The translations under genes and the position numbers were made by a program. From Congzhengia minquanensis (lineage in GTDB: Bacteria; Bacillota; Clostridia; UBA1381; UBA9506): DNA of 64,000 nt. The stretch lies in the NCBI RefSeq assembly GCF_014384785.1, contig NZ_JACRSU010000002.1, positions 496,001 to 560,000 of the forward strand. Reading direction: 5' to 3'. Numbering within the stretch: position 1 is the stretch's first letter; every line of letters begins with the position of its first letter. The notes beneath the pieces were generated by a model. The model saw nothing but the letters and a program-made list of their open reading frames with translations. It searched no databases and was not told the DNA's origin. This document shows positions 39,725-60,527 of the stretch, piece after piece.

Positions 39725-39800
39725 AAAGGATAAGGTGTTGATTTTTAATCATTTTGATGATAGACTGAAAGAAAACTGCATTTCTGGGAGGTCTATTGTT

Positions 39801-40973
39801 TTGAAAAATCCATATAAGCCGGGAGCTGGTTTTGCTCCTGAATATTTGGCTGGTAGAGACCAATTACTTGATACTGCTACAAATAACTTAAATGAATTAA
39901 AAGAAGGCGGTATGGTAATGCACACTGTATTCTATGGTGTTCGTGGAGTAGGTAAAACGGTGCTATTAAATAGGGTTGAAGAAATGGCTGATAATCTTGG
40001 TTTCTTATATTCTCACATAGAATGTAATGAAAATTTTGATTTTAATAAAAATATAATTATACAAAGCAAAAAGTTCATTAATCAATTGAGTCTTATAAAG
40101 TCTGTGAAAGAATTGATTGACAAAGTAAAATTGGTAGTAACATCATTTAAGACAACTTATTCGCCTGATGATAATACTTGGAGCTTTGGATGGAGTCAAC
40201 AACCATACAATGTTGAAACAGCAGATACAGGTGACTTTACAACTGATTTAATTACATTGTTTACTTCACTTGGTAAATTGGCACAAAAGGCTAATGTCCC
40301 TATTTGTTTTTTTATTGATGAAATTCAAGCTCTAGATAAAAAGTATCTGGTTGCTTTAATAACTGCAATACATAGAATGAATCAATTAGGACTACCTATT
40401 TTGCTTTATGCTGCGGGATTACCAACTATTTTACGAATTGCCGGAGATGCAAAATCATATTCAGAAAGGCTATTTAATTTTACTAAAATTTCTTCGTTAA
40501 ATGATAATGATGCGATAGACGCAATTACTGTTCCTGCGTTACAATACGGCGTAAAATTTGATGATGCTGCTGTAAGCCTTATATTAAAGCATACAGGTGG
40601 ATACCCGTATTTCATACAACAGTATGGCAGAATAATTTGGAACCTGGCTGCTATTGATCGTCATGTTACAAAAGAAATAGTTCACACGTCATATGATGAA
40701 TACACTGAAACCTTAGATAATAGTTTTTACGGAGTTAGGTTTAATCGAAGCACAAAAGCTGAAAAAGATTTTTTACTTGCAATGTCTCAATGCAAACATT
40801 TCCCATGTGCAATGAATGAAGTTTCTAAAAAAATGAACAGAGACTCTCATTCTATTTCTCCTTTAAGAAATAATCTTATTAATAAAGGATTAATTTATTC
40901 TCCTTCGTTTGGTGAAATTGATTTTACTGTTCCCCATTTTGACCGTTTTTTAGAACGTACTTTTTTAAAATAA
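39801..40973 (+). CDS. AAA ATPase with C-terminal winged helix (paralogue 1)
   Basis: About 390 residues: KNPYKPGAGFAPEYLAGRDQ opening, Walker A GVRGVGKT (~residues 47-54), Walker B CFFIDEIQ (~170), an Orc1/STAND-like lid, and a winged-helix end (SKKMNRDSHSISPLRNNLINKG). This is the 'NPFxPG...LAGR' ATPase family frequent in mobile elements and defence loci. Start TTG 39801 follows GGGAGGTC; the longer frame from 39735 would cover that site, and the paralogue at 59346 begins at the same point. Carried with its own promoter and terminators in the tail operon. Confidence 0.8.
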   Translation: MKNPYKPGAGFAPEYLAGRDQLLDTATNNLNELKEGGMVMHTVFYGVRGVGKTVLLNRVEEMADNLGFLYSHIECNENFDFNKNIIIQSKKFINQLSLIKSVKELIDKVKLVVTSFKTTYSPDDNTWSFGWSQQPYNVETADTGDFTTDLITLFTSLGKLAQKANVPICFFIDEIQALDKKYLVALITAIHRMNQLGLPILLYAAGLPTILRIAGDAKSYSERLFNFTKISSLNDNDAIDAITVPALQYGVKFDDAAVSLILKHTGGYPYFIQQYGRIIWNLAAIDRHVTKEIVHTSYDEYTETLDNSFYGVRFNRSTKAEKDFLLAMSQCKHFPCAMNEVSKKMNRDSHSISPLRNNLINKGLIYSPSFGEIDFTVPHFDRFLERTFLK

Positions 40974-41106: not shown

Positions 41107-43086
41107 TTGAATAACTTTGAAGTACTTATAAAAGCTATTTTGGATACAAGCAGTATTGGCAAACAGGATATTGACAAAGTTCAAAAGGTTATTAATAAGC
41201 TTTCTGTAAACATAGCCGCCGATATTGATAAAGCAGACCTTATAGCGAGTATAAAAAAGGTTATACCAGAAATCGAGTCTGAATTGAAGAAAATATCTGG
41301 TGTAGATATTAAAATTAATGACTCTGCTGTGACAAAGGCCGTAAATAATCTTATTAAAGACAACCAGAGATTACAGGCAGAATTTGATAAAACGGCACAG
41401 AAATCAAATAAGATAAAACTATCTATTGATAATGGTACATATGAAAAACAGTTAAATCAAGCAATTTCTGCCACTCAAAAATGGAAATCTGAAAATGCAC
41501 AATTGAAATCTAGCATTAATGATTTGGAACTGGCTTATAAGGATTTAATTAACCCACAACAGGCCGACCAAAGAGTTAAGAATGAAGAAAGATTTCAGCA
41601 AGCATTAAAGAAAACGCAAAATTTAACGTCTATACAAAAAGGCAAATATGCTACAGATGACGAAGTCACTACCTTATTAAATAAATATCAGACCTTTTAT
41701 GACAAAAATACTGCTGCTCATAAAAAATGGGGAGCGCAATTACTAAAGAATATAAATGAGTTGTCAAACGGAATGAAAATACCAATTGACAGAGCAAACC
41801 AATTAGAAAAAGAGTTACAGGATGTTGGTAATGCTGCTAGGCAAGCTGGAAAGCTTGGTTATTCCTCGTTTGATAAAATCAAAAATATTTGGAATAAATT
41901 TGGCGGTTGGACTCTTGGTACTCAGAGTATGATGTTTTTTGTTAATGAGACCAGAGAGGCAGTTAAAGAACTTAAACAGGTTGACACTTTATTAACAGAA
42001 ATAAGTAAGGCAAATGATAAATTATCAAAAAATGAATTAAAAGGAATCGGGAACAGGTCATTTGAAACTGCCAGTAAATATGGTAAAAAATCGACAGATT
42101 ATTTATCAGGAGTACAAGAAGCTTCGCGAGCTGGATATTCTGACGCAGAAGATATAGCAGAATTATCGGTTGCTGTTCAAGGCGCAGGAGATGTAACGGC
42201 TGAAATTGCAAATCAATATGTTATTGCTACAGATAAGGCATATGGTTTACAGGGAAATGTTCAAAAATTAACGGAAGTTTTTGATGGTTCAAATAAAATA
42301 ACTAATTTGAATGCAGTTAACATGACTAAGCTAGCAGAAGGTATGTCAATAGTTGGATCAACTGCTGCAAGTTTTGGCGTTGATGTAAACGAAACAACTG
42401 CTGCATTGGGGACAATGGCTGCTGTCACACAACAAGAAGGTTCTGAAGTTGCTCGTGCTTTTCGCGCCATCCTTCTTAATATTAGACAGGTTTCTGACGA
42501 AGAGGAAGGGATTAGTGCAGAAGGGCTTACTAAGTATGAAAAGGCATGTAATGCTCTTAATGTTAAATTAAAAGAAACTAAAAATGGGGTTACTTCACTT
42601 CGTGATCCGATGGAGGTTCTAAACGAATTATCAGTTGAATATTCAAAATTAAATAATAACGATATTCGTAGAACGAATTTATTAAATTCGGTAGGTGGGA
42701 AATTAAGAGCAACCCAATTAGATGCTTTATTACGAAATTGGGATATGTACGAGAAAATGCTTGGTGAATATGCAAATGGTGGAGGCTCAATGGCTGTTGA
42801 GGCTGAAAAGAGTGCGAATAATTTAGAAGGATCACTAAATTCATTAGGCAATACTTGGACTGATTTAATATCTTCATTTGCTCAATCGGGTACTTTGATT
42901 GGAGCAGTACAAGAGTTAAATTCTGCCTTGTCTGTTCTTAAAAGTATTTTGGCACCTATCGGTGGACTACTAAATAATGTCTTAACTGTTGGTGATGGAT
43001 TCGTACCAAAAGTAGCATTAATATCGGCTAGTATTAAAGGACTATCTAAATTAAATCTTGCAAAGAAATTAACAAGCTTCGTGGGT
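41107..43086 (+). CDS. Tail tape measure protein, exon 1
   Basis: The first 660 codons of the tape measure. TTG start after GGAAGGAGA. The exon is helical, with a coiled-coil region (~residues 80-140) and the conserved TP901-like core (SRAGYSDAEDIAELSVAVQGAG, ...VGSTAASFGVDVNETTAALG). The frame ends in ...KLNLAKKLTSFVG at GGT 43084-43086. Without splicing it runs 41 more codons of unrelated sequence to TGA/TAA at 43212. Spliced to 52417-58137 it gives 2566 residues, consistent with a tail of several hundred nanometres. Confidence 0.85.
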
Positions 43087-43108
43087 AGGGATAAAATGTT
43101 GTCCCTTA

Positions 43109-43120
43109 TAATATGCCCAC
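43109..43120 (+). other. Internal guide sequence of the tape measure intron
   Basis: TAATATGCCCAC is complementary to the ligated exons GTGGGT|ATATTA, with the single G.U at the junction. This one segment predicts both splice sites, 9.3 kb apart. Confidence 0.85.
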
Positions 43121-43628
43121 CACACGGTGATGGCAACATTGAACGAGTTTATAATGAAGACGGTTTTATAAGCAAGACTGTGTGTAGCAAACGACTGAAA
43201 TGGTGTGCGTAAGAAACACACTCTCGATGAAGCAACGAGACGGGAACTGTCTATGTTCTTTTCACCAAACTATAGTGGTGACATTATAGTGGCAATCGTG
43301 AAAGCGATATGGTATGGGAATAGTAAAAGAATTTGAGGAACCCGCACCTAACCTATTAAATATATTTAACAGGAGTGGCCAACGAGTATCTTAGTCGCAC
43401 GGTTATCTCTACCTTATTGAGAATATAATCGTGAAGGTGTATTCTGGACTAACATTCAGCAACAGAATGATTGTTTCAGGGCATAGTATATTGTGCTCTT
43501 TGTTGTATTTTGGCGGCATAACATCTGTCGTAATATATAGATGTTTCATATTTAACAACTTAAATTGCTCACTATCAACACGCAATACTATGCTCCTTTT
43601 GTGTTAGCATTGTATTGAGGTGAGTTAT

Positions 43629-43856
43629 ATGGATAAAAAATATTATAAAATTATTGGGAAAAATATTGCTTATTATCGGAAGCAAAAGCATCTAACCCAA
43701 GAGGGGTTTGCAATGCGGGCAAATGTTACAAGGAGTTACATAAGCCAAATAGAAGCTAAAAATTTAGATGTTCTACCCTCTTTGCCAATGTTAATTCATT
43801 TGGGTGAAATACTTGGTATTGAACCTTATTTATTATTGGTTGATAAAAAAACATAA
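43629..43856 (+). CDS. XRE-family regulator of the cargo island
   Basis: About 75 residues: KIIGKNIAYYRKQKHLTQEGFAMRANVTRSYISQIEAK is a canonical XRE helix-turn-helix, with a short C-terminus. ATG 43629 follows GAGGTGAG; an upstream GTG would include this site. It lies just after the intron core and immediately before the Septu-like pair, so it probably represses that operon. Confidence 0.85.
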   Translation: MDKKYYKIIGKNIAYYRKQKHLTQEGFAMRANVTRSYISQIEAKNLDVLPSLPMLIHLGEILGIEPYLLLVDKKT

Positions 43857-43873
43857 AAAAATGCTGATATGAT

Positions 43874-43902
43874 TTGCATTGCTTAGTAATTTTTGGTATA
43901 AT
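43874..43902 (+). promoter_or_regulatory. Promoter of the Septu-like pair
   Basis: TTGCAT (43874-43879) and TATAAT (43897-43902) are 17 bases apart, between the regulator and the ATPase gene. Confidence 0.7.
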
Positions 43903-43940
43903 AGCATTAAACATAATAATAATAGTATGGAGGTGATATA

Positions 43941-45230
43941 GTGCGTATAGAGAATGTGTTTATTAATAATTTTAAAAAAATAGAGAATTTAAACTTAAAG
44001 TTTAATACTGGATTTAATTTAATTATTGGTGACAATAGTTCTGGTAAGACTTCTATTCTTGAAGCAATATCTGTGGCGTTGGGAGGCTTCTTAGCTGGAA
44101 TCGACAATATTTCTACTATTCATTTTAATAAAGATGAGATTCGTAGAATAAGTAATTGGACAGGTGATGGTTCTTATAATATTCAATATAGTACACCTAT
44201 ACAAGTTCAATGTGATTTAATATTAGATAATGAAAAATTCTCTTTTACTAGAAAAAAGAATAGTATTAAAAGTTCTCGTACCACTATTGAACCAAGAGAT
44301 ATTTGTAGGAAAGCTGCATTGTTAGCAGGAGCAGGAAATGATACTTCTGAATTACCAATTATTAGTTATCAAAGTGCCGCAAGAATGTGGTCTCAAAAAA
44401 AAGACAAATGGAATGATCCATTTCAAGACGATTTTTCAAGGGTAGTTGGTTACACTGACTGCTTAGATGAATCGTCAAATACAAAGATGCTAACTAATTG
44501 GTGTAAAAAAATGGAGCAAATTTCTTGGCAGTTAGACAAAAAAATAGGGGAATATGAAAGTGCTAAATCTGCAATTTCACGTTTTATTACCTTTATGACA
44601 AATCCCGAAGATACAATAGCTCCGTCATCAGAAGCACAAGTTTTTTATGATAAAAGATCAGAGGAATTAATGTGTATAATTGAAGATGATGTTTTACCAT
44701 TAAGATTTTTAAGTGCTGGATATCGTTCTATGATTGGAATGGTTTTAGATATTGCCTGTAGGATGTCTATACTTAATCCCAATTTATTAGATAAAACATA
44801 TATGACAAATGGTATTGTATTAATTGATGAGTTAGACTTGCATTTACATCCTAAGTGGCAATGGAAAATAATTGCGGCTTTAGAAAAAACATTCCCTAAT
44901 GTTCAATTCATAGCAACAACACATTCATCAATTATATTATCGTCATTTAAGGGGGAGCATATTATATCACTTAATAAAGACGGTGAAATTGAATATAAGA
45001 AACCGGCTTATGGTTATCAAATAAATGACGTTTTAAGTGTTTTACAAGATTCAACTATGAGAGTTCCTTCGATACAGTCTGATTTTGTTAAATTTTATAA
45101 TGCAATTGAATGTCATAATTTACAACTTGCTGAAAATTATTTAAACGAATTAAAACAAAAACTATCAGAAAATGATCCTGATATTACAGGAGCGCAAACA
45201 ACTCTTGATTTAGAAAAAATGAATGAATGA
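43941..45230 (+). CDS. ptuA: Septu-like ATPase (PtuA-type)
   Basis: A 429-residue SMC/OLD-type ABC ATPase. Walker A is GDNSSGKTS (~residues 30-38), followed by ILEAISVALGGF. The signature/Walker B half has LSAGYRSMIGMVLDIACR and VLIDELDLHLHPKWQW (~293-308), then ATTHSSIILSSF. This is the PtuA arrangement of the Septu anti-phage system and of retron-associated ATPase-HNH pairs; no reverse transcriptase is adjacent. GTG start after GGAGGTGATATA. Its stop is 9 bases before the HNH gene, so the two are coupled. It likely senses phage infection and controls the nuclease. Confidence 0.85.
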   Translation: MRIENVFINNFKKIENLNLKFNTGFNLIIGDNSSGKTSILEAISVALGGFLAGIDNISTIHFNKDEIRRISNWTGDGSYNIQYSTPIQVQCDLILDNEKFSFTRKKNSIKSSRTTIEPRDICRKAALLAGAGNDTSELPIISYQSAARMWSQKKDKWNDPFQDDFSRVVGYTDCLDESSNTKMLTNWCKKMEQISWQLDKKIGEYESAKSAISRFITFMTNPEDTIAPSSEAQVFYDKRSEELMCIIEDDVLPLRFLSAGYRSMIGMVLDIACRMSILNPNLLDKTYMTNGIVLIDELDLHLHPKWQWKIIAALEKTFPNVQFIATTHSSIILSSFKGEHIISLNKDGEIEYKKPAYGYQINDVLSVLQDSTMRVPSIQSDFVKFYNAIECHNLQLAENYLNELKQKLSENDPDITGAQTTLDLEKMNE

Positions 45231-45239
45231 GGTTTCTTT

Positions 45240-45884
45240 ATGTTTTATATTATAAAAGGGAAAGAGCCTGTGTCCCTTACAAAATATAAAAAAGAAAAAT
45301 TTGCTTATTTTGACGGATTTCGTAATAAAGATGATATACGTCATGCATTATTACAAGAGCAGGGTTATTTATGTGCATATTGCATGAGACGTATAAATTA
45401 CTCAGATGATTTAACTATAGAACATTATATACCTCAATCTAAACTAGATAGAATTGGTGCATTGAATTATCAAATAATGTTAGGCGTATGTAAAACAGAT
45501 AGGAATTGTGAATTTAAAAACCAAACTTGCGATTCCCACCGAAGGAACTGTGACTTAACAATTAATCCTTGGATTCAGTCTTCTATTAATGAGATTGAAT
45601 ATGAAGAACATACGGGTAAGATAACATCTAAAAACAATAGAATAAAAATAGATTTGGAAGTAACTTTAAACTTAAACTGTCTTGAATCAAGATTACCATT
45701 AAATAGGAAAGCTGCGCTTGACAGTTTAAAATCATTTATAAGTAAACAGTACAAATGTGGAACATGGACAACAACAATTTTAAGAAAAATAAAAGACTAT
45801 TATACAGAAAAAGATACTAATGGAAAATATAAAGAGTATATTGGAATATTAATTTGGTACTTAGATAAGCGTTTACATAGTTAA
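45240..45884 (+). CDS. ptuB: Septu-like HNH nuclease (PtuB-type)
   Basis: A 214-residue HNH protein. LLQEQGYLCAYCMRRINYS gives CxxC, TIEHYIPQSK supplies the His-Glu catalytic region, and NCEFKNQTCDSHRRNCDLTINPW adds further Cys and the Asn. This is the layout of PtuB and of the retron-associated HNH family (TIGR02646-type). ATG after GAGGTTTC. In Septu, both proteins are needed and the nuclease kills or blocks the infected cell. Followed by a terminator. An alternative role as the homing enzyme of the host intron cannot be excluded. Confidence 0.85.
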   Translation: MFYIIKGKEPVSLTKYKKEKFAYFDGFRNKDDIRHALLQEQGYLCAYCMRRINYSDDLTIEHYIPQSKLDRIGALNYQIMLGVCKTDRNCEFKNQTCDSHRRNCDLTINPWIQSSINEIEYEEHTGKITSKNNRIKIDLEVTLNLNCLESRLPLNRKAALDSLKSFISKQYKCGTWTTTILRKIKDYYTEKDTNGKYKEYIGILIWYLDKRLHS

Positions 45885-45908
45885 AATAATAATAAATGTA
45901 AAACATTT

Positions 45909-45937
45909 AGAGATACCATTACTGGCATCTCTTTTTT
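45909..45937 (+). terminator. Terminator after the Septu-like operon
   Basis: AGAGATACC (45909-45917) pairs with GGCATCTCT (45924-45932), one mismatch, followed by seven Ts. It lies inside the tape measure intron. Confidence 0.8.
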
Positions 45938-45942
45938 ATATT

Positions 45943-46103
45943 GTTGCCTGCCGTTTGGCGACGCATAAATTAACGGCTTGCTTATGATTGTCGCTTACCG
46001 TAAAGCGACGCATAAATATGCGGTTAGAAATAAATACCGCTGACCGATATGCGGTATATAAATGGTTGGGTCGAAAGTTTACCGCTAAACTGTGCAACAG
46101 GAA
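45943..46103 (+). repeat. Four tandem hairpins with conserved CCG loops
   Basis: Stems differ but loops are alike: GTTGCC-TGCCGTTT-GGCGAC, GTCGCT-TACCGTAA-AGCGAC, TACCGC-TGACCGATAT-GCGGTA and AGTT-TACCGCTA-AACT, all within 45943-46095. The first two are each followed by GCATAAAT and the third by ATATAAAT. Changed stem bases that keep pairing are what an RNA structure under selection would show. It could be a protein-binding RNA array or a noncoding antitoxin-like RNA. No gene overlaps it. Confidence 0.55.
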
Positions 46104-46165
46104 TCTTGTAGCTTAGCTATGAGAGGTTTGATGAGCCATGATCACATAATCATCTTGTCGTTTAC

Positions 46166-46194
46166 TTGATTTAATTGACATTATATGTTATAAT
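46166..46194 (+). promoter_or_regulatory. Promoter of the small-ORF/membrane-protein pair
   Basis: TTGATT (46166-46171) and TATAAT (46189-46194) with 17-base spacer, about 34 bases before the ATG at 46228. Confidence 0.65.
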
Positions 46195-46227
46195 TTCAAT
46201 GTAAATTTTTGTATTGGAGAGATGAAA

Positions 46228-46395
46228 ATGTGTAATAAAACAAACAATAATAATGATAATAGCCCCATTAAACAAGAAAATGACAAAAACAGAGGAAGAC
46301 AACAAGTTGAAATAAATACGGCTGAAATTATTAGACACTCACAAGAACCTACAAATTCTTTATCAAAACCAAGACCATCGGAGGATGGCGAATAA
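46228..46395 (+). CDS. Small Asn-rich protein
   Basis: A 55-residue polar protein (MCNKTNNNNDNSPIKQENDK...), ending KPRPSEDGE. ATG after TTGGAGAG. It lies 14 bases before the membrane protein start and is probably co-translated. Low complexity N-terminus, likely disordered. The same 'KPRPSE' style end is seen in zinc-ribbon protein genes of this island. Function unknown. Confidence 0.55.
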   Translation: MCNKTNNNNDNSPIKQENDKNRGRQQVEINTAEIIRHSQEPTNSLSKPRPSEDGE

Positions 46396-46409
46396 AATGA
46401 GGTGATTTT

Positions 46410-47045
46410 ATTTTAGAATTTTTTAAAGAGATTTCTTTAAGTGAGATATTTTTATATTTTACAAGCGGTTATATTTTTACGCAAATATTTCACTTTATTG
46501 TTGCAAACAAAAAGGTTATAGATCAGCAACATATTTTGACACGTTCTATTATTTGTGGATATATACTAACACTGTTTTATAAAATTATACCCAGTATCAC
46601 ATACAATAATGCTGTTCTTGATACAATGTTATTTTTAATAATATGTGCAATTGCCGGTTATATCACTGCTCAATTTTATGTAAGCAAGTGGATGAGATGG
46701 ATTTTAAAGAAATTGAAAATTAAGTCTACTATTAATGAATATATTTGGCGAGATATAGAAGATAAAGATAATGGTTTATGGGTTAAGGTTGTATCTAAAG
46801 AATGTAATTTTGATATATATGGACAACTTGTTTTGTTTGAGCAATTTGAACGCAAACCGATTATTGTGCTTAATCGTTATATATATCGAAATTACAGTGA
46901 CAAAAAAATAATTAAAGATTTTGACACAGTGCCAACGAAAAGAATTGTTATTGATACCTCTAAATGTGATGTAATAGAATTAACTTACGATAAAAATAGC
47001 GATAATATTAAAAATCATGTTCAAGAAAGATGTGTGAGAGTATAA
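46410..47045 (+). CDS. Membrane protein with soluble C-terminal domain (DUF6338-like), ATT start
   Basis: About 211 residues. GAGGTGAT at 46399-46406 places the start at ATT 46410 (stop TGA at 46398); the TTG at 46536 would lose the first helix. Three hydrophobic helices lie at ~residues 10-30 (IFLYFTSGYIFTQIFHFIV), ~45-62 and ~72-90, then a beta-rich domain (NGLWVKVVSKECNFDIYGQL). This resembles DUF6338-type membrane proteins. Small-gene plus membrane-gene pairs occur in accessory islands; a defence role is possible but not shown. Confidence 0.6.
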   Translation: MLEFFKEISLSEIFLYFTSGYIFTQIFHFIVANKKVIDQQHILTRSIICGYILTLFYKIIPSITYNNAVLDTMLFLIICAIAGYITAQFYVSKWMRWILKKLKIKSTINEYIWRDIEDKDNGLWVKVVSKECNFDIYGQLVLFEQFERKPIIVLNRYIYRNYSDKKIIKDFDTVPTKRIVIDTSKCDVIELTYDKNSDNIKNHVQERCVRV

Positions 47046-47126
47046 CTTTAAATTATTATTTTGAGCAAAATGCTACATTTTGTTATAATATTTTTGTAGA
47101 ATTTACCAGTGTTATTTTATATTGAT

Positions 47127-47280
47127 TTGTGCTATAATAATAATGTAGAAATATATGAGGTTACGAAGCCTACCAAAATCGTATTAATAGAGGTTACGAA
47201 GCCTACCAAAATCGTATTAATAGAGGTTACGAAGCCTACCAAAATCGTATTAATAGAGGCAGACCTTGTGTCTGTCTTTA
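47127..47280 (+). ncRNA. Type III antitoxin RNA (3 x 33-nt repeats) with terminator
   Basis: Three identical 33-base repeats at 47157-47189, 47190-47222 and 47223-47255 (beginning GAGGTTACGAAGCC), preceded by a TATAAT (47132-47137 region) and followed by a leaky hairpin terminator GGCAGAC/GTCTGTC plus TTTATT (47258-47280), then the ToxN-type toxin. This is the standard type III layout: repeat RNA cut by the toxin into units that inhibit it, with the terminator setting the RNA:toxin ratio. An open frame through the repeats is accidental. Confidence 0.88.
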
Positions 47281-47297
47281 TTCTTGGGGATATACAT

Positions 47298-47903
47298 ATG
47301 ATATGGATAGATGTAAATGCAAATTATCTTGATTATTTAAGAAAATTTGAAGACAGAATACCTAAAACTGATTATGGAGAAAACAAATACAAGCCATTCT
47401 TTGGTGTTTTGTTTGAAGCAGAAGATTTATGCTACATAACACAAGTATCTCATCCTCAACTTCGGCATAATAAATTAAAAAACCAATTAGACTTTTATAA
47501 AATATATGACCCCAAAAAACTTAATAGACTTATTGCTGTTGTTAATTTAAACTATATGTTCCCTATCCCTAAGTCTGAGATTTATCCGGTTACAGTCTCA
47601 AATATCGAACAGCATCGCACATTTAAGTCGGACAAAGAAAAAAGTCAATATGTAGATTTGTTAAAGCGTGAAATGAAATATATCGACACTTTGAATTTGC
47701 CCGAAAAGGCCAAAAAGATTTATAATCTTAAATATAATCACCCCACTAACAAAATTTCAGTACGTTGTATTGACTTTAAACGAATGGAACACTTAGCTCA
47801 CGACTATATTTTAACATTAGATGAGCGGCTAAAGGGATTTCAAGGGCAATATACCTTTAAAGAAGCTGATTTTGGTAAACCTGTAGGAAATGAAATATGG
47901 TAA
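47298..47903 (+). CDS. toxN: ToxN/AbiQ-family type III toxin
   Basis: A 201-residue endoribonuclease: IWIDVNANYLDYLRKFEDRIP, then KPFFGVLFEAEDLCYITQVSHPQ (the ToxN 'F(V/F)GVL' core), NHPTNKISVRCIDFKRMEHLAHDY end. ToxN enzymes cleave mRNA and cause abortive infection when the RNA antitoxin is lost. ATG 47298 follows TGGGGAT; an apparent longer frame from 47109 only translates the antitoxin repeats. It lies in the tape measure intron, in the same orientation as the phage gene. Confidence 0.9.
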   Translation: MIWIDVNANYLDYLRKFEDRIPKTDYGENKYKPFFGVLFEAEDLCYITQVSHPQLRHNKLKNQLDFYKIYDPKKLNRLIAVVNLNYMFPIPKSEIYPVTVSNIEQHRTFKSDKEKSQYVDLLKREMKYIDTLNLPEKAKKIYNLKYNHPTNKISVRCIDFKRMEHLAHDYILTLDERLKGFQGQYTFKEADFGKPVGNEIW

Positions 47904-48160
47904 AAAATTTTTAGAAATAGTTGCATTTATCTATAAATTGTCATATAATTATAATAAGGATATACCATCTTATTAAAATATTTAATTTCTATAATGATTT
48001 GCTAATTAAATTAGTGGAATTTAACACTTGTATTTTTGTTTAAAATGATGTATAATAAGTATGAGCCTAATATAAGTGGGTTTCAAATGTTTGTTGCTAC
48101 TCGATATGCAACTAAAAAAAGGTCGAGTTCAAATGTTTAGAACTCTATAATAATTTTATG
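47904..48160. other. Short non-coding gap with possible RNA
   Basis: No gene. A TATAAT-type -10 lies near 48050, followed by two copies of TTCAAATGTTT (near 48085 and 48128) and hairpin-forming sequence (TTGCATATCGAGT / ACTCGATATGCAA-type). It may hold a small RNA, but nothing is certain. Confidence 0.3.
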
Positions 48161-48161
48161 A

Positions 48162-48398
48162 TATAATAGTTATAGAAAATAAAGGTGTGGAAACCCAAGA
48201 CGGTTGCCACGCACAATTAGTTTAACAAATTTTTATATGCAGTTTATCTTTTAGATAAACTACGAAACTTGTCAGCTATCTGTTGCCGCAGATGGCTACA
48301 AAAAAAGAACGAGAAGCCAAGACGATTGACCCTCGTGTATAAGTTAAAGAATAACCGCTACATTTGGACGTGTGGGCGGTTATTTCTTTTTGCTAAAT
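48162..48398 (+). ncRNA. Antisense RNA antitoxin of a type I toxin locus
   Basis: A promoter (TATAAT at ~48164) starts a plus-strand RNA containing GGTGTGGAAACCCAAGACGG, and the AATAACCGC...GCGGTTATT terminator (48351-48391) ends it within the toxin gene's 3' end. The promoter and first ~60 bases are repeated almost exactly at 61505-61571. The overlap with the convergent toxin mRNA is typical of Fst/BsrG-type antisense control. Confidence 0.7.
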
Positions 48399-48469
48399 AT
48401 AGTATAACAAAGACCAATGATACCAACAATCAGGGTCGTAAAAATAAACAATCCATCATATGTAACCAT
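48380..48469 (-). CDS. Type I toxin, small membrane peptide
   Basis: A 29-residue peptide (MVTYDGLFIFTTLIVGIIGL..., ending FSKKK) read leftward from ATG 48469, with GGAGGGG upstream. A single transmembrane helix and Lys-rich tail match the 'holin-like toxin' (Hol_Tox/Fst/TxpA-like) family. On the opposite strand an antisense RNA overlaps its 3' end. Minus-strand promoter: TTGACA and TACAAT at ~48632-48598. Such toxins depolarise or damage the membrane if the RNA antitoxin is lost; SPbeta carries similar loci (bsrG, yonT). Confidence 0.8.
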   Translation of the reverse strand: MVTYDGLFIFTTLIVGIIGLCYTIFSKKK

Positions 48470-48725
48470 GGCACCCCTCCTTTCCAGAGGGGAAAGAAAC
48501 CCTAAGAAACCCTCTATTGCATAGAAGGTCAACCGCCTATATCGTCTATGAAGATGAGTAAAAGTTCAACGATGCTCCTCGTTCCAAACGGCATTGTATC
48601 ACATGCTGTTATATTTTGTCAAGATTTGAGTAAGGTTATAAAAAATTTTTTTCAAAAAACTCTTGACTTTTTGCGTTCCAAATATTATAATTAATTTATG
48701 GAACACAGAAAGTGAGGTGAACAAG

Positions 48726-48896
48726 CTGAGTCCACGAACAGGCAGACCAAAAAGTGAAAATCCCAAAAATATTGATTTAAAAGTTCGTATTGACGAAACA
48801 ACGAATCGGCAATTGGTTGATTATTGTAAAACTCATAATATAACACGAACAGAGGCTATTAGGATGGGTATTCACTTGATTTTGTCTACAAAATAA
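48726..48896 (+). CDS. Small ribbon-helix-helix protein, CTG start
   Basis: About 56 residues. The family begins 'MSPRTGRPKSE', and here the codon at that place is CTG (48726-48728), six bases after GAGGTGA. The upstream in-frame GTG overlaps the ribosome-binding site. The body NIDLKVRIDETTNRQLVDYC and TRTEAIRMGIHLIL is the CopG/MetJ-like DNA-binding fold. Probably a small repressor within the island. Confidence 0.75.
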   Translation: MSPRTGRPKSENPKNIDLKVRIDETTNRQLVDYCKTHNITRTEAIRMGIHLILSTK

Positions 48897-48900
48897 AAAA

Positions 48901-48940
48901 TATGGTGTAACATAACTTTTAGCGGAGCAGTTACACCATA
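48901..48940. promoter_or_regulatory. Perfect inverted repeat before the antirepressor gene
   Basis: TATGGTGTAAC (48901-48911) and its inverse GTTACACCATA (48930-48940) enclose an 18-base loop. There is no T run, so it fits an operator or RNA hairpin rather than a terminator. Confidence 0.45.
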
Positions 48941-49026
48941 CGCAGTGAGGATTTATATAATATAAATCTCTTCTATATTATATAATACCTCAAATTAAAT
49001 GTCAATACGAATGGAGGTATTTATAA

Positions 49027-49755
49027 ATGAAAACTGAAATTTCAACTTTTAGTAATGAGAAGTTTGGTAAAATCAGAACTGTGTATCAAAATGAAAATGT
49101 GTGGTTTATTGCATCTGATGTATGCAATATTTTAGAATTGACAAATACAACTGTTGCAATGAATGGATTAGAAGATTTTGAAAAGGCTAAGTTAAACTTA
49201 GGGTTATGTGGTGGTAACACTAACATTATTTCTGAAAGTGGTTTTTACACACTTGTTTTACGTAGTCGTAAACCAATAGCAAAACCTTTTAGGCTGTGGG
49301 TTACACAAGAGGTTCTACCTAGTATTCGTAAACACGGGGCATATATTCAACCGCAAAGAGAATCAGAAGCTATAGACTATTACTTTCCTAATTTCTCTGA
49401 TGGACTTAAGCTTTCAATGGTTAAAGAGCTTCAGCAAAAGAATGCTCAACTACAAGAGTTCTATGATGATTTATTAAGCACAGATGGACTACTGGATATG
49501 AATACTGTAGCAAAAGAACTGGAAATCGGCGAATATGCTTTGTTTGCTTATTTACGTGGTAAGAAAATCTTATTCTACAACAAAGATATGGTTAATGTTC
49601 CATATGAACGTTTTCGCAAAGAGGGCAAATTTAAGGTGAAAGAAACTCCATGCCATGATGGAAAAACAAGAAACGTTACTTATGTCACTCGTAAAGGTCT
49701 TGATTATATCAGAAAGACTATGCGGAAAGATGGAATGTTGGGGGTGGCAAAATGA
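49027..49755 (+). CDS. BRO-family antirepressor
   Basis: A 242-residue protein with an N-terminal BRO domain (FGKIRTVYQNENVWFIASDV, ISESGFYTLVLRSRKPIAKP, WVTQEVLPSIRKHGAY) and a C-terminal KilAC-like DNA-binding domain (LLDMNTVAKELEIGEYALFAY...). Such proteins inactivate phage repressors or act as regulators. ATG after GGAGG. It overlaps the peptidase gene by four bases (ATGA), so the two probably act together in an induction-type switch. Confidence 0.88.
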   Translation: MKTEISTFSNEKFGKIRTVYQNENVWFIASDVCNILELTNTTVAMNGLEDFEKAKLNLGLCGGNTNIISESGFYTLVLRSRKPIAKPFRLWVTQEVLPSIRKHGAYIQPQRESEAIDYYFPNFSDGLKLSMVKELQQKNAQLQEFYDDLLSTDGLLDMNTVAKELEIGEYALFAYLRGKKILFYNKDMVNVPYERFRKEGKFKVKETPCHDGKTRNVTYVTRKGLDYIRKTMRKDGMLGVAK

Positions 49756-50288
49756 AAACATATAAAGAATTGTTGGCAATTGCTAAACCTTTCATTCAAG
49801 CGTCTTCACAAATTCCACACGATCCATTATCGTTGTGTAAAAAACTAGGGATTGTTTATAAGTGTAAAATGCAGTATGAGGAAGATTTTAATGGAGTTAA
49901 TCCTCTTGTTAACTTCCCCGCTATTCTGTGTAAAAAAGGTAATGGACAATATATAATTTATATAGATGAATCAAGTAAATATTGGAGATTTTACTTTTTT
50001 CACGAGATTGCTCATTTTCTATTAAAACATGATTTTGATTCTTTGGAAAATGAACAAGAAGCAAATATGTTAGCCTGTATATTAATAGCTCCAATGAGTA
50101 AATTGCCAGCATCTTTAAAATCCGTGCAGGATTTGATGTATCTTGCAGGATTGCCTATTGGACGAGCAGAAGAATATTGGCAAGCACTTATTGAAAACGG
50201 ATATGGGACAGAAAAATTAATGTCTCACTCGGTAAAAGAACTATTAAATATGTCGTTGTATGAACTCTGTGTCGAGTTAACAAAATGA
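49752..50288 (+). CDS. ImmA/IrrE-family metallopeptidase
   Basis: A 178-residue zinc protease with FFHEIAHFLLKHDF (HExxH, ~residues 82-86) and the NEQEANMLACILIAP segment supplying the third zinc ligand. In ICEBs1 the ImmA relative cleaves the element's repressor. The start overlaps the antirepressor stop (ATGA), so the pair likely controls derepression of this island or the prophage. Confidence 0.88.
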   Translation: MKTYKELLAIAKPFIQASSQIPHDPLSLCKKLGIVYKCKMQYEEDFNGVNPLVNFPAILCKKGNGQYIIYIDESSKYWRFYFFHEIAHFLLKHDFDSLENEQEANMLACILIAPMSKLPASLKSVQDLMYLAGLPIGRAEEYWQALIENGYGTEKLMSHSVKELLNMSLYELCVELTK

Positions 50289-50363
50289 ATTATAAGACAA
50301 AAAATAGGCCATGTTAATGGTCTATTTTTGTATTTAAAATAACTATGAAAGAGAGAAAATATT

Positions 50364-50513
50364 ATGAAAAGATTTATTTTTAAATTAAGACAAATTCTTC
50401 CGTTTATGTATTGGAGTAAGTTCACTACTCCAGATGGTAAAAAACACATAACCATCTGGAGACAGTGTTTTTGTAAACCATTTAACATTAAACAGTTTAC
50501 TTTAGCGGATTAG
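50364..50513 (+). CDS. Small basic protein, 49 residues
   Basis: Starts MKRFIFKLRQILPFMYWSKF at ATG after AGAGAG, ends QFTLAD. It is basic and contains YWSKFTTPDGKKHITIWRQ, a pattern seen in small phage/plasmid proteins. It converges with the zinc-ribbon gene on the other strand, overlapping by four bases. Function unknown. Confidence 0.5.
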   Translation: MKRFIFKLRQILPFMYWSKFTTPDGKKHITIWRQCFCKPFNIKQFTLAD

Positions 50514-50641
50514 TTATATTCAGTTCCGCCGCATTTAGGGCAAGGTGGCATTGTGTCGCTATCATCGTCAAGTGTCACCTGTTGCCCACAATTAGTACAT
50601 GTGTATGTACCTTCACCTGGTTTTTCACCTGTTGTTGGCAT
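50510..50641 (-). CDS. Zinc-ribbon protein, 43 residues
   Basis: Reads MPTTGEKPGEGTYTCTNCGQ and ends PCPKCGGTEYN, with two CxxC pairs forming a rubredoxin-like zinc ribbon. ATG 50641 follows GGAGGAAAG. Small zinc ribbons of this kind are common in Firmicutes with no fixed role. Confidence 0.7.
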   Translation of the reverse strand: MPTTGEKPGEGTYTCTNCGQQVTLDDDSDTMPPCPKCGGTEYN

Positions 50642-50706
50642 ACTACTTTCCTCCTTACCGTATATGATTTTATTTTAATCTATATTTTTCGAAAGTAGGT
50701 GATCAT

Positions 50707-50949
50707 ATATTTGCTAATGATCATGGTAAAATTTTATTTTTAGTTATTGAAATAATGCAGTTATTGTATAAATATGGCTGTACCTATAATAATGCAGAAA
50801 CCATCTTAGCTATTGTAATTAATACAATTAAGCAGCAACGCGAGGAACTTGAATATAATTCTATTGACGATTTTATAAATGAAAATAAAACTCATGTTGC
50901 TGATAATGATATAGTCAAGCCATTAAATCATGTTGATGGTTTATGTTAG
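50707..50949 (+). CDS. Small acidic protein, ATA start
   Basis: About 80 residues: FANDHGKILFLVIEIMQLLY, then a helical acidic C-terminus. AGGTGATC lies just before ATA 50707. The first ATG (50755) has no ribosome-binding site and would remove a well-formed N-terminus. Function unknown; it overlaps the next open frame region. Confidence 0.5.
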   Translation: MFANDHGKILFLVIEIMQLLYKYGCTYNNAETILAIVINTIKQQREELEYNSIDDFINENKTHVADNDIVKPLNHVDGLC

Positions 50950-50990
50950 TTTTTTGCTTTAATTTAAATTATTTGAAAGGGTTGATTAAT

Positions 50991-51266
50991 TTGAATATTA
51001 TTTATAAGCCACGTAATTCCGGCAAGACCACTGACTTAATCAAAATATCTGCCGAAAAAAATATTCCTATTTTATGTTTTAGTAGCAGTATATCGTCGTA
51101 CATTATTAGTCTTGCAAAAGAATTAAATTTACGTATCCCTAAACCAATTGCACTCCATGATTATGCAAATCATGTAGTTGATAATGTTATTATAGACGAT
51201 GCAGAATATGTATTACAGTGTTTGCTCAATTCAAATATAGAGGCTATGAGTATTACTCATGTATGA
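50991..51266 (+). CDS. Small P-loop protein
   Basis: 91 residues from TTG 50991 (after AAAGGG): NIIYKPRNSGKTTDLIKISA contains a Walker A-like NSGKTT. Then come ILCFSSSISSYIISLAKEL and NVVIDDAEYVL-like (NVIIDDAEYVLQ, Walker B-like). It looks like the N-terminal ATP-binding core of a phage NTPase, shorter than most kinases, and may be a truncated or miniature form. Confidence 0.6.
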   Translation: MNIIYKPRNSGKTTDLIKISAEKNIPILCFSSSISSYIISLAKELNLRIPKPIALHDYANHVVDNVIIDDAEYVLQCLLNSNIEAMSITHV

Positions 51267-51269
51267 ACA

Positions 51270-51716
51270 ATGATTAAAGTTTATTTTTTATATCGATTAA
51301 CAAATATATAATTTTAAAAATTCCTCCCATGAATAAAGATGATATGAATACCGAGATGCCTCCTATTATAGACATAGTGTCCCCATCCAAAAGACCAACA
51401 AAAAATGTGAGAATCCCTATTAGAAATAAATAACGCAAGTAAATCCCAGAGCAGAACCTATAAAGCCAAGACCTTCAGAAGGGTTAGTCGCTCGTAATCC
51501 GTTTGGGTGGCTCTTTTCAATTTCTATTAATGTATTTGCTAATCCCATATCTGTTTCTGTAGAAATAAATTCTGATGACTTTAGTTCTCCTTTTGTCCAT
51601 TTATCAATTTTATTTGAACAGCTGTTACATACATTAAAGGATTTCTCGTTTAAAACGCAATCTTTATATATGTCAAAAACTCTTATTTCATTACCACAAC
51701 AATCACACTTTGACAT
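51270..51716 (-). pseudogene. Zinc-finger membrane protein, probably frameshifted
   Basis: From ATG 51716 (MSKCDCCGNEIRVFDIY..., CxxC twice) the frame ends soon after SEGLGFIGSALG. A shift of one base at about 51455 continues into a fully hydrophobic frame (YLRYLFLIGILTFFVGLLDG, then further helices) that ends at 51270. Together they form a zinc finger plus membrane anchor like its neighbours. Either a real -1 shift or a frameshift mutation; the short form alone lacks the anchor. Confidence 0.5.
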
Positions 51717-51755
51717 ATGTATCATCCTTTCTAAATGCCGGAAATTATGAGATTA

Positions 51756-52007
51756 TCAATTACCATAACGTTCACTATATGTTTTCGCAGCTTCTCTTAT
51801 TTCTTCCATAAGTTTATAATCGTCATCACATGGTTTACACCTACTTGTCCATGCAATACTACTTGTATCTGTAGAATTTGTAAAAGTTTTTCCACAACGT
51901 GAACATTTATATTCTTTGTTTGTGGTGCTACTACAAGATCCAATTCCTACCAATACAAAAATGACAATTATAACAGTTATAATTGTATTGATTTTCCCAT
52001 TTTCCAT
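51756..52007 (-). CDS. Membrane-anchored zinc-ribbon protein
   Basis: 83 residues: an N-terminal hydrophobic helix (INTIITVIIVIFVLVGIGSC) and a zinc ribbon (YKCSRCGKTFTNST ... CKPCDDDY). The Cys after the helix could be a lipobox (VGIGSC). Middle gene of a three-gene leftward set of zinc-ribbon proteins, 15-30 bases apart. Function unknown. Confidence 0.65.
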   Translation of the reverse strand: MENGKINTIITVIIVIFVLVGIGSCSSTTNKEYKCSRCGKTFTNSTDTSSIAWTSRCKPCDDDYKLMEEIREAAKTYSERYGN

Positions 52008-52022
52008 TATATATTCCTCCCA

Positions 52023-52256
52023 TTAAAATTTATGGTTACAATCATTGCATTGATATTTACTTATAACCTTGTTTGCTGCAAATGCACCCCAAAGAGCAAC
52101 TGACATTGCTTTACTTGCTCCGCTAATTACTCTGGTGTTTGCGCTTCCACATTTGGGGCATCTTATAGCGGTATCAATAGGACAACCGCAATTTGGGCAA
52201 GTTTTAGCTTTGTCTGATACCTCTTTCCCACATTCTTTACATTTAATTAAAGCCAT
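52023..52256 (-). CDS. Double zinc-ribbon protein
   Basis: 77 residues with four CxxC motifs: IKCKECGKEVSDKAKTCPNC and IRCPKCGSANTRVIS, then YQCNDCNHKF. The first ribbon matches the 'CxxCGKEVSDKAxxCPNCG' family. ATG after AAGGAGAA. First gene of the leftward set; these three read against the tape measure direction, inside the intron. Confidence 0.75.
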   Translation of the reverse strand: MALIKCKECGKEVSDKAKTCPNCGCPIDTAIRCPKCGSANTRVISGASKAMSVALWGAFAANKVISKYQCNDCNHKF

Positions 52257-52416
52257 AATTATTCTCCTTCCATAACTTTTATTTTGTGTATAATTATATC
52301 ATACTTTTACAATATTTTCAAAAACAAGTTTATTTGAAACAAATAGTCACATATTGTGTCGTTTTTTTGTATATTATATGCCAATATCCCAAAAGTATTG
52401 ACAGATAATTAGTCTG

Positions 52417-55400
52417 ATATTAAAAACCATCCCGAAAAATATAGTATCGTGGATAAAAACACCTACAGGTGCTATAACGGCAACAATAACAGGTGTAATG
52501 TTTTTATGGAAAGCAATTGAAACACTTCAACATAAAAATGAGGAAGCGGCAAGGGTTTCAAGAGAATTAGCAGATGAAGAGGTTGAAAATCGTCAAGAAC
52601 AATTATCTTCTCTTGAAGAACTTCAAAAAAAACTAGTATCAACTGGCGGTGACAAACAAGCATTAGCACAGATACAAAATGAATTAAATGATGCAATTGG
52701 CGAAACACCTGGATTGCTAAATGATGAATCTAATGCTTATGAATCTGCGACAAAAAAATTGTGGGCAAAAATTGAAGCAGAAAAAGCAGCGTTAAAAGTT
52801 TCAAAAATGAGGCAAAAGGAAGCTGCTAGAGACCAATTTAATTCCAATGTAGGCAATACTTCATATAATCCGTTTGATTTTTCTGCTGAAGACATGAGAG
52901 CTATAGCATGGGATAATTCATATAGCGAAGAAAGTGCTACACATTTTTATGCTAAAAGACAATTAGGGAACAATCTTGTCATAGGTAGGAAAATTAGTAA
53001 AGAAGAATGGGCAAATTTTTGGAAAGAGCAAGTAGAGTATGCTAAAATTTCATGGGAAGATGTAGTTTCTGAATATTCTGGAACTGGTGGTAAAAGTTTT
53101 GCAGAAGGTATTTTAGAAACACTTGTTACATCTGGTTATGGGGATAAAGATATAGATAGGTTGTTGCCACAATTATTAGACAACGATGAATTTACTAAGG
53201 CTATAGATGAGTATCTATCAAGTTTATCTGACCCTAATAAGAATAGTGACAGTGCAAAGAAAAATGTTGAACAAATTATTGAATCCATTTCAAATCAATT
53301 TCCTAAATTAAATAAGTTTTTAGATGATTATTGGTATAATCTTGTTTCCGGTAGCGAAAATGCTAAAGATAGCATAGATAATTTCATAGAAAACTACGAA
53401 GCAAAATTAAAATCTCTTAATGAAGAACTTGATAAAATTCAGTCTGCATATCAGACAGTAGCTGCCGCTATTGAAGAGTATAACGAAAATGGCTATTTAT
53501 CTGTTGACACATATCAAAAGCTATTAGAACTTGCCCCTGAATACATGTCAATGTTAATGGATGAAAGTGGTAATTTAACATTAACAAAAGAGTCTTGGAG
53601 ACTTTTAACTGAGGCTAAAATCCGTGACATGTATCAGACACAAGCAAATCAATATATTGAAAGCATAAAGGCGGCTGCCGACAGTGGTAATCTTGAACAG
53701 CTTGATAAATTAACACAAGGTTATAAAAATCTTGCTGAAGCTAAAGTTATTGATTATAAGGCTACATTAGCAACGCTAAACCTTACTGATGAACAAAGAG
53801 CCGGAGCTGAAGCTTATTTATCTGGTTTAGAAAAGGCGATGAATCAAACCATTGCAGGGCTGGGGAAAGGTGGAATGGGCGGAGGCTCAAACACTGCCAA
53901 AAAACAAGAAGACCTTGCAAAACAAGTTCGTGAAAAAGAAAAGCAGATTGAGGAAGCATGGGAAAAGGAACGTCTTGAACAGTTAAAAGATGATCTTGAA
54001 AAGCGTAAAAATGAGATAGAAAAATACAAAAACTATATTGAGACGCTTGACTTTGGGCTTGGTATAATAGAAACTAGCGATTATTCTGGTAAAATTGATT
54101 TGCTTAGTCAAAAGTATGCAAAAATATCAGATTATACACATCAATTAAATGATGAATTGTCGCGTGTTTTAGAAATGCCATATAAAACCGCATCTGAAGC
54201 GCAGGAAATTGCAAATCGTGTAAAGGAAATTGGTTCTGAATTAACTAACAACAAGAAGATATTAAAAGAGACAATTGTTGAAATGCAAAAAGCTCGTATT
54301 GAAGCGACACGAGCAGCTACGATTGACATTACTAACGGTTTGGCCGAAGGGTTAGAACGTACAATGTGGGCGTTTGATCAATTAGAAAATCCATATAATA
54401 GAACAAATGACTTTTTAGATTCTATGATGTCGTTTGATTCATTATTTGGTGAAGTTTCTGAATTAGATAAGGAACTTGAGAAAAAGAAACAGCACGATAA
54501 AGCGTTAATTGCAGAAGAACAAGCCACACAAGATACCATTCATCAAATTGTTACTGATGCTTTAGAACTGCAAGCGGAAGAAAATGCAAAAACCAGAGCT
54601 GAAGAACGAGCTAAATTGGAAGAGGAACTTGCTGAAATTTCCAAAGAGTATAAGGCTACATTAGATACTGCTGCTACTAATACTGAAAATACAAAAAATA
54701 AAATTACTGGTAGTTTTAACTCGGTTGCTGATAGTGCTGGAACCATGCAGCAAAATGTTGAGACACATTTTGGAAACATGGAAACAAGTGTTACGACCCA
54801 TGTTGATAATACTATTACAAAGATTGATGAGTTAAAAGAAAAATTAGCTGATGCCAATTCTTCAACTTTTAATCCAAATAATAGTACTCCAAACGCAATA
54901 GCAAAGTCGCTTGTTCCTGATTACAAAAGAATTTCAAGCCCTTATGGAATGAGGAAACACCCAATAACAGGTGAGACTAAAATGCATAATGGCATTGATA
55001 TTGCAGCCGACGAAGGAACTGATATTAAAGCCGCAGCCAGCGGAACTGTTTTGTTGGCTGGTAATAATGGTGGCTATGGTAATTGTGTTATCATTTCACA
55101 TAGTGATGGAACTCAAACACTTTACGGCCATGCTTCAAAGCTTTTGGTATCGGCAGGGCAGAAAGTAGAAAAGGGTCAGGTCATTGCAAAGGTGGGTTCT
55201 ACGGGCAATTCCACCGGAAACCACCTACATTTTGAAACTAGAATAAATGGTAAAAGTTATGATCCAACATTTTGGGCTTCAACTCACGCTAATGGCACAA
55301 AAGATTTTGGAATTGCCGGAGAGAATTATAAGAAAGAATACGCAATTAACAAAAAAACTGGTGAATGGTCTGTTATTGACTCCCCTACTCTATTTGATAA

Positions 55401-59345: not shown

Positions 59346-60527
59346 TTGATTAATATTGTTAATCCATATACTCCGGGGTCTGGACGTATTCCCGGCTATT
59401 TAGCGGGAAGGGATTCAATCATTGAGGAAGCCAAGAGATGTATTGTATCAACTCAAGCCCAGTTCCCTGAAAGGTCAATTGCATATTACGGATTACGCGG
59501 AGTGGGTAAAACTGTATTGCTCAACGCTATTGAAAATATTGCCGATGACTTAAATGTATTGTATGAGCATATTGAGATAAAAGAAAACAATTCTTTTATT
59601 AAGGATGTTTCAATCGCAAGCCAAAGATTGTTAAATCAGATGAGCTTTAAAGAAAATGCCAAAGATAAATTAAACAAAGTAATTGCCGCAATTAAACAAC
59701 TGAGAGTTACAATTAATCCGGCTGATAATACTCCATCAGCAGAGATAGCTGATTTAACTATACCTGATAGCCTTTCTAATGATGTAACAGAACTTTTTGT
59801 ATCATTGGGAAAACTTGCATTTGACACTGGGAACACTATTTGTTTTTTTATAGATGAAATTCAATACGTTGAAGACGAGCAATTGGAGGCATTATTAATG
59901 GCTCTCCATCGAGTCAATCAATTACGTTTGCCAATTTTAGTTTTCTGTGCAGGACTTCCTAAGATACTTAAAACTTTTGGAGATATTAAATCCTATTCTG
60001 AAAGATTGTTTCAATATACACAAATTGATTCTTTGAAAAACAATGATGCTATTAATGCGATAATTGAACCGGCTAAACCATTTAATGTGAAATATACGGA
60101 AGGTGCTATTGCTGAAATATTATTGGCTACTGGATGTTATCCATATTTCCTTCAAGAGCTTTGCAGTACCATATGGAGCATTTATGATAAAAACATAATA
60201 CAGAAAGATGATGTAATATCTGCGATACCATATTCTCTTGAGAATCTTGATAATAGTTTTTTTCAAATAAGATTTGAAAGGTGTACAGAAACTGAAAGAA
60301 AATTTATGTATGCTATGGTAAAATGCGGCGAGCTTCCTTGTACCATAGCTAATGTTGCACGAATAATGAACCGAAATGTGAAAAGTATATCTCCTATTAG
60401 AGCACAGTTAATCAATAAAGGGTTAATATATTCTACTGGGTATGCGGAGATTGATTTTACTGTCCCAAAGTTTGATGATTTTTTGAAACGATTAAATCCT
60501 GAGATTAATGTTTGCTTAAATAGATAA
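59346..60527 (+). CDS. AAA ATPase with C-terminal winged helix (paralogue 2)
   Basis: 393 residues, the same family as the gene at 39801: INIVNPYTPGSGRIPGYLAG opening, Walker A GLRGVGKT (~residues 51-58), Walker B CFFIDEIQ (~171), and the ARIMNRNVKSISPIRAQLIN winged-helix end. The two are homologous along their whole length. TTG start after GTGAGGAGTGA. A TATACT box and TTGATT (59281-59310) may give it its own promoter. The repeated capture of this family in one phage hints at a shared defensive or stabilising use. Confidence 0.8.
   Translation: MINIVNPYTPGSGRIPGYLAGRDSIIEEAKRCIVSTQAQFPERSIAYYGLRGVGKTVLLNAIENIADDLNVLYEHIEIKENNSFIKDVSIASQRLLNQMSFKENAKDKLNKVIAAIKQLRVTINPADNTPSAEIADLTIPDSLSNDVTELFVSLGKLAFDTGNTICFFIDEIQYVEDEQLEALLMALHRVNQLRLPILVFCAGLPKILKTFGDIKSYSERLFQYTQIDSLKNNDAINAIIEPAKPFNVKYTEGAIAEILLATGCYPYFLQELCSTIWSIYDKNIIQKDDVISAIPYSLENLDNSFFQIRFERCTETERKFMYAMVKCGELPCTIANVARIMNRNVKSISPIRAQLINKGLIYSTGYAEIDFTVPKFDDFLKRLNPEINVCLNR

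Follow-up and report, generated by a model that had tools for sequence, protein, structure and literature searches.

Why do the two halves of a phage tape measure gene lie 9.3 kb apart in Congzhengia minquanensis? We investigated this question in a window of 64,000 nt (assembly GCF_014384785.1, contig NZ_JACRSU010000002.1, positions 496,001-560,000, forward strand), and all coordinates below are those of this window unless a relative is named. The best explanation is that the intervening segment is a group I intron that carries defence and toxin-antitoxin genes within the tape measure gene and is predicted to be spliced, a reading to which we assign a probability of roughly 0.85. It is supported by complementarity at the P1, P9.0 and P10 helices together with restoration of the reading frame, by relatives that have no intron, and by covarying intron types at the same place; splicing and defence themselves are what we infer from these sequence features. 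The elements concerned are:

41107..43086, forward strand: tape measure exon 1, 660 codons with a TTG start as listed, matching PhageMin_Tail (3.4e-20) and phrog_4211 (331-939)
43087..52416, forward strand: predicted group I intron with cargo, 9,330 nt
52417..58137, forward strand: tape measure exon 2, matching Peptidase_M23 (9.5e-37) and phrog_4211 (1012-1971)

The initial annotation had described two halves of one tape measure gene, and both indeed match phrog_4211 in non-overlapping parts. Both exons are open along their full length, with the open reading frame (ORF) of exon 2 bounded upstream by an in-frame stop at 52399, and joining 43086 to 52417 by script gave a stop-free product of 2,566 residues, in agreement with the exact frame restoration claimed earlier. 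In a small grid of joins 167 others were also open, and frame alone is therefore insufficient to fix the splice site.

Two pairings are expected at the 3' splice site of a group I intron: P9.0, between the bases 5' of the terminal G and a stretch 3' of P7, and P10, between the start of exon 2 and bases beside the internal guide. We identified the corresponding strands at both ends of the insert:

43081..43086, forward strand: P1 exon strand GTGGGT, with U at the 5' splice site, pairing with 43115-43120
43109..43120, forward strand: P10 strand TAATAT (43109-43114) and internal guide GCCCAC (43115-43120)
43447..43452, forward strand: P9.0 5' strand GACTAA, pairing with TTAGTC at 52409-52414 over 6 bp
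52409..52416, forward strand: P9.0 3' strand TTAGTC, a T and the terminal G (omega-G)

P1 (GUGGGU/GCCCAC) comprises 6 bp including the U.G at the splice site, and P10 joins 43109-43114 to ATATTA at 52417-52422, the first 6 nt of exon 2, over 6 bp; both had been proposed in the initial annotation, to whose list of helices we add the 6-bp P9.0. The 3' domain of the intron is about 10 nt long, consisting of the P9.0 strand and the omega-G. The 43447/52409 helix was rejected as a candidate for P7, which forms locally, and is assigned to P9.0. Scoring each of the 2,636 G residues in 43500-58100 for P10 and P9.0, we found at least 6 Watson-Crick pairs of P10 at six and at least 6 of P9.0 at 20, and a single residue, G 52416, with at least 5 bp of both. 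This site restores the frame and is one among 17 G residues in 52401-52500. The 3' splice site at 52416 is thus far beyond chance.

The same combined score, which is blind to frame, was run on eight loci including the window. The top-ranked G was in frame and open in six of the eight, the window included, or five of the seven further loci, with the P9.0 segments of L005, L016, L018 and L030 chosen after their 3' ends had been seen and no 3' site fixed before scoring in L015, L007 and L031rc. The numbers of G residues ranked were 1,511 in the window, 346 in L018, 168 in L005, 247 in L015, 1,601 in L030 and 1,440 in L031rc. The predicted introns span 9,330 nt in the window, 2,842 nt in L018, 1,314 nt in L005, 1,068 nt in L015, 12,644 nt in L030, 9,936 nt in L031rc and 3,127 nt in L007. 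The 12.6-kb intron of L030, whose predicted junction joins positions 1666 and 14311 of that locus, belongs to Eubacterium plexicaudatum ASF492, a cultured commensal.

Across the predicted junction (marked by a slash), the spliced forms read FVG/ILKT in the window, KNTG/IFKT in L030, KNVG/IFRT in L005, KNVG/IITA in L015, KTVG/NIKP in L018, KNVD/SLKK in L031 and KNVD/SVKA in L007. Uninterrupted relatives read KDYG/ITQ (L010, L013, L027, L052) or KNVG/ITQ (L037) at the aligned place. The G/I junction of spliced relatives is therefore also read in several uninterrupted ones, with the window's own exon end shifted in the junction alignment and the uninterrupted place matching most, not all, spliced forms.

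Interruption at this place is widespread. A protein search with the exon 1 half, restricted to proteins of about 386-1,226 aa, gave 859 matches. Of the 120 listed, two run on past the residue aligned with the junction, three end early, and the remaining 115 stop within a span that reaches from 30 residues before it to 41 after. As this sample favours short proteins, DNA of relatives was fetched and scored; one such DNA search matched 18 of 397 genomes. Among 39 scorable relatives, 32 stop at the site, from 23 residues before to 60 after, and seven (L010, L013, L027, L037, L043, L052 and L055) continue for more than 270 residues past it; a comparison with relatives lacking the insertion had been suggested by the initial annotation. 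Apparent copies were counted once (L019-L022; L023 and L028; L004, L025, L030 and L032; L024, L031 and L056; L046 and L053; L048 and L054), and the 39 exclude L017, which is masked, L026, which has another interruption upstream, L029 and L049, for which there is no row, and L041 and L047 (contig ends). A stop at the site is by itself no proof of an intron; visual inspection for the group I consensus words known as the P, Q, R and S elements identified group I elements in types A, B and D, in L028 and in L012, not in all 32. The interruption is a recurrent site, not a single oddity. A frameshift was set aside as its cause, the read-through tails being mostly unlike between loci.

These relatives also bear on the possibility that the halves are made as two separate, cooperating proteins, with the insert an ordinary island between genes. 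Both ORFs are long, and an internal ATG of exon 2 (52498) is the annotated start in the protein records P0001 and P0002, the exon 2 of P0002 being 83% identical to that of the window; a start there would however remove the beginning of exon 2, in seven relatives a single ORF runs across the site without a break, and neither P1, P9.0 and P10 nor their recurrence is predicted by two independent genes, which makes this account very unlikely. For close relatives, one search run without a positive control matched none of 392 genomes, and further searches gave nothing usable, one of them only short matches covering at most 7% of the query.

In L026 the same gene is interrupted a second time (11450-14720 of that locus), some 90 residues upstream of where it is usually split; this interruption encloses an 857-aa ORF, and the usual site itself is occupied by a type A element. 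In L065 (reverse complement, 1235-12704), a tape measure relative contains an 11-kb insert, putatively an intron, that carries phage tail collar genes and an IS66 transposase.

Two of the intron types at this site in relatives, A and B, have strongly covarying helices. In type A (eight sequences, alignment A3; P1, P4, P6, P7 and P8), the bases pair in 95.0% of cells, and 14 of the 33 pairs vary on both sides. In type B (eight sequences, alignment A2; P1 with an extended exon pairing, the pseudoknot P3, P4, P7, P8 and P9), the figures are 99.0% and 10 of 38, with P3, P7, P8 and P9 pairing in 97.9-100% of cells and double changes in P3, P7 and P9. On four of five covariation measures, none of 500 shuffles reached the observed value for either type, the structures having been derived from the same alignments (type B P3 and P4 excepted), which biases the sliding control in their favour. 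P1 is invariant within type A and compensated between types (GUGGGU/GCCCAC in the window, GUCGGU/GCCGAC in type A, GUGGAU/GUCCAC in type D). The window intron aligns best with type D (L007, L024), with which it has in common a P7 stretch, for example CAACGAGTA.

In type B we additionally observed that exon 1 bases upstream of P1 pair with the intron (A2 columns 3-9 with 164-170), with changes on both sides in three of seven pairs, an exon recognition longer than the usual P1.

Within the window, P3, P4, P6, P7, P8, P9.0 and P9 can all be assigned upstream of 43470, placing the core within the first 390 nt of the intron:

43192..43198, forward strand: P3 5' strand, pairing with 43391-43397
43241..43244, forward strand: P4 5' strand CGGG, pairing with CCCG at 43341-43344
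43384..43389, forward strand: P7 5' strand GAGTAT, pairing with GTATTC at 43439-43444, the same element as in L007/L024
43398..43433, forward strand: P8 hairpin, also present in the minimum-energy fold
43453..43469, forward strand: P9 hairpin

The P3, P4, P7 and P8 helices of the initial annotation are thus present.

Several observations weigh against the intron. A loose P3/P7/P8 descriptor is also matched by 122 of 400 dinucleotide shuffles; we discarded it as too unspecific for a core test, and the window core by itself is statistically not significant, so that the case for the core rests on the relatives. Among those, the fifth covariation measure, further pair types, was reached by 216 of 500 shuffles in type A and 309 of 500 in type B. 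L016 breaks the 3' rule, and the in-frame site of L007, which has an 8-bp P9.0, ranks only fifth of 416 G residues; the choice of P9.0 segments after the fact, noted above, also belongs here. Failure of group I covariance models had been named in the initial annotation as evidence against an intron, and they did fail: Intron_gpI finds nothing in 42900-43700 with E up to 10, and there is no match of any Rfam intron model in 43000-52600 at E up to 1, none in the window at gathering score and none in the relatives' loci L028 or L012, and L004 scores only 19.6 bits (E 0.017) with the Rfam group I model against a cut-off of 50. Finally, the insert has eight terminator-like sites vs 3.4 in shuffles, three of them on the coding strand, which could hinder read-through over 9 kb.

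An Rfam match helps to detect group I introns but does not define them. Searched without a known phage intron as positive control, the group I model gave no gathering-score match among 17 relatives' loci, and it also fails on related introns with covarying helices. A group II intron, examined through Rfam only, was set aside, as P1, P10 and the terminal G fit group I. In the L016 locus (11170-12300), a type B 5' domain is followed by a 3' end off the P9.0/P10 rule, perhaps a degenerate intron.

That some introns at the site may be degenerate, as L016 shows, and that Rfam does not recognise the window core would both fit an intron that has decayed, leaving an unspliced tape measure, a dead prophage and a simple host defence island. 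We consider such decay unlikely: both exons have stayed fully open, 6 bp each of P9.0 and P10 are kept at the 3' end, and P0121 differs little from the window either in the exon (392 of 400 residues shared) or in the residues read into the start of the intron (40 of 41).

We next describe the cargo of the predicted intron, based on its larger ORFs, of which ten were compared with both Pfam and PADLOC and an eleventh with Pfam:

43620..43856, forward strand: XRE-type regulator (HTH_3 3.7e-10)
43941..45230, forward strand: Septu PtuA ATPase (PADLOC PtuA 1.3e-154)
45240..45884, forward strand: Septu PtuB, HNH type (PADLOC PtuB 5.5e-64)
47157..47259, forward strand: ToxI-type tandem repeat, 33 nt x 3.1
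47298..47903, forward strand: ToxN/AbiQ toxin (Pfam ToxN_toxin 6.1e-43; PADLOC AbiQ 1e-18)
49027..49755, forward strand: BRO/KilAC antirepressor-like (Bro-N 9.9e-22, ANT 4e-18), with a relative in L002
52023..52256, reverse strand: antisense zinc-ribbon gene beside the 3' splice site (Zn_Ribbon_1 6.7e-8)

The XRE, Septu-like and BRO genes of the initial annotation, together with its zinc ribbon, are confirmed by these profile matches. The PtuA ATPase adjoins the PtuB HNH protein, as in Septu systems, and tandem repeats precede the ToxN-type gene, as in type III toxin-antitoxin loci (ToxIN/AbiQ), in line with the earlier assignment; the listed ToxN ORF starts at GTG 47109 and spans the repeats, the first ATG past them being 47298. 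Three other assignments were not upheld, with no Pfam or PADLOC match for the RHH protein, no Pfam match and a weak PADLOC one (capP, 1.6e-4) for the ImmA-like protein, and only sub-threshold Rfam BsrG/SpF66 matches for the type I toxin. Promoter-like sites are not more frequent in the insert than in shuffles (64 vs 58.2).

We additionally identified defence genes in inserts of relatives. L031, on the same contig as L024, encodes GmrSD_N/NsnA-like, NsnB-like (7.4e-61) and NsnC-like (1.1e-11) proteins as well as AbiU/AIPR (4.3e-23) and an S24 repressor; L002, whose insert is cut by the contig end, a ThsB-like TIR protein (8.1e-35); L030 GmrSD_N, an M78 peptidase and a DUF3990/PARP-like protein; and L018 GmrSD_N. 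The insert of L063, without worked-out splice sites, has a RelA_SpoT-domain protein (2e-16, PDC-S33) beside an unmatched ORF. Genes recur across intron types: GmrSD_N in L018, L030 and L031 (43-53% identity), an M78 and membrane pair in L030 and L003, and BRO in the window and L002. In 17 of the 22 inserts with a located second half (some exon 2 starts being the ORF start or the first tblastn match), an antisense ORF containing two or more CxxC motifs begins 11-267 nt upstream of exon 2; among 170 segments drawn at random from the same loci, 11 have such an ORF. The window zinc-ribbon protein has matches (E 1e-4 or better) among the ORFs of nine other inserts, although short zinc ribbons can match through cysteines alone. 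The initial idea of a splicing intron as landing site for a defence island is thus supported by anatomy and recurrence and does not extend to every insert: among the ORFs scanned, which are not all of them, several short inserts have no known defence gene.

The gene content also speaks to the proposal that the insert is a DNA element, excised by a recombinase on induction, which would likewise restore the gene. One L030 insert ORF has a weak, below cut-off Phage_integrase match (3.7e-4); no recombinase was found by Pfam or PADLOC among the ten window-insert ORFs, and none of the 20 listed repeat families (of 42) joins the two ends of the insert, so we regard excision at the DNA level as extremely improbable.

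We therefore return to the group I intron and set out how it might work. It would occupy a single codon boundary in the tape measure gene. The P1-P9 core lies in its first 390 nt, and the far end holds no more than the 3' strand of P9.0, the terminal G and the partner strand of P10. With the core at the 5' end and so small a 3' end, about 8.9 kb of cargo would fit between P9 and the 3' splice site, leaving the core untouched. In the lysogen, late genes would be silent and the cargo (Septu PtuAB, the ToxIN-type locus and regulators) would be read from its own promoters, presumably protecting the host. On induction, the long late transcript would fold and the intron would leave with its cargo, yielding one in-frame message for a 2,566-aa tape measure protein.

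More broadly, we lean towards a view of this codon boundary in gut (Lachnospiraceae-type) phages as a docking site, at which unlike group I introns probably serve as an exchangeable chassis for accessory genes, with defence prominent and the antisense zinc-ribbon gene a frequent 3' companion. This gene may drive the movement or expression of the element. If true, a ribozyme turns a virion gene into a cargo site, where defence genes are gained without an intergenic slot or gene breakage, and splicing allows an essential gene to house a prophage defence hotspot. The intron reading also offers a reason for the many truncated-looking tape measure genes of this group in databases.

Elsewhere in the window, we identified an integrase (335-1366, reverse strand; phrog_1, 3.7e-33), consistent with a temperate phage, and phrog_6841 ATPase-like proteins of unknown function flanking the tape measure gene (39735-40973 and 59346-60527). 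A full-length ROOL RNA lies at 18602-19174 (forward strand; 375.5 bits). An 886-aa tail protein (22008-24668; phrog_5302) has a C-terminus rich in cysteine and aromatics, and may resemble the variable proteins of diversity-generating retroelements.

Several known systems resemble parts of this arrangement. The nad5 intron of anthozoan mitochondria is a gene-rich group I intron. Like the window insert, such organellar introns enclose many genes; unlike it, they hold organellar genes fixed in a lineage, whereas the window has an exchangeable phage defence set. Gene-rich group I introns reach about 20 kb in total, according to an excerpt of PMC4227781. The same paper describes IStrons as a group I intron combined with an insertion sequence (IS) element, 482-2,582 nt long and carrying IS transposase genes; they have in common with the window a 5' ribozyme core, foreign genes behind it, a far 3' splice site and an insertion rendered harmless through splicing (here predicted), and differ in that the window insert has 9,330 nt, defence genes and one fixed site in one gene (PMC4227781). 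No transposase, whether of IS200/IS605, IS607 or another type, was found by Pfam among the ten insert ORFs.

Phage group I introns, as described in excerpts of PMC3984707 and PMC4299906, carry endonuclease ORFs or none. They are likewise self-splicing introns (here predicted) within a phage gene; the window insert, in contrast, has many genes, its PtuB being of HNH type, and no LAGLIDADG or GIY-YIG endonuclease was recognised among the ORFs tested. In cluster J mycobacteriophages, capsid and tail genes contain group I-like introns that splice out in the course of late expression (PMC3706429); these too lie in virion structural genes, but are small, with one or no endonuclease ORF, and the excerpt of that paper describes none in a tape measure gene.

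In a literature search judged by titles and abstract openings, with bioRxiv and most subscription papers outside its scope, we recognised no report of a phage intron with defence cargo. The novelty among group I introns lies in the cargo and the shared site. The prophage defence hotspots of P2 and P4 are likewise fixed phage loci with changing defence genes; those hotspots lie between genes, whereas the site in the window lies inside a structural gene and would depend on splicing.

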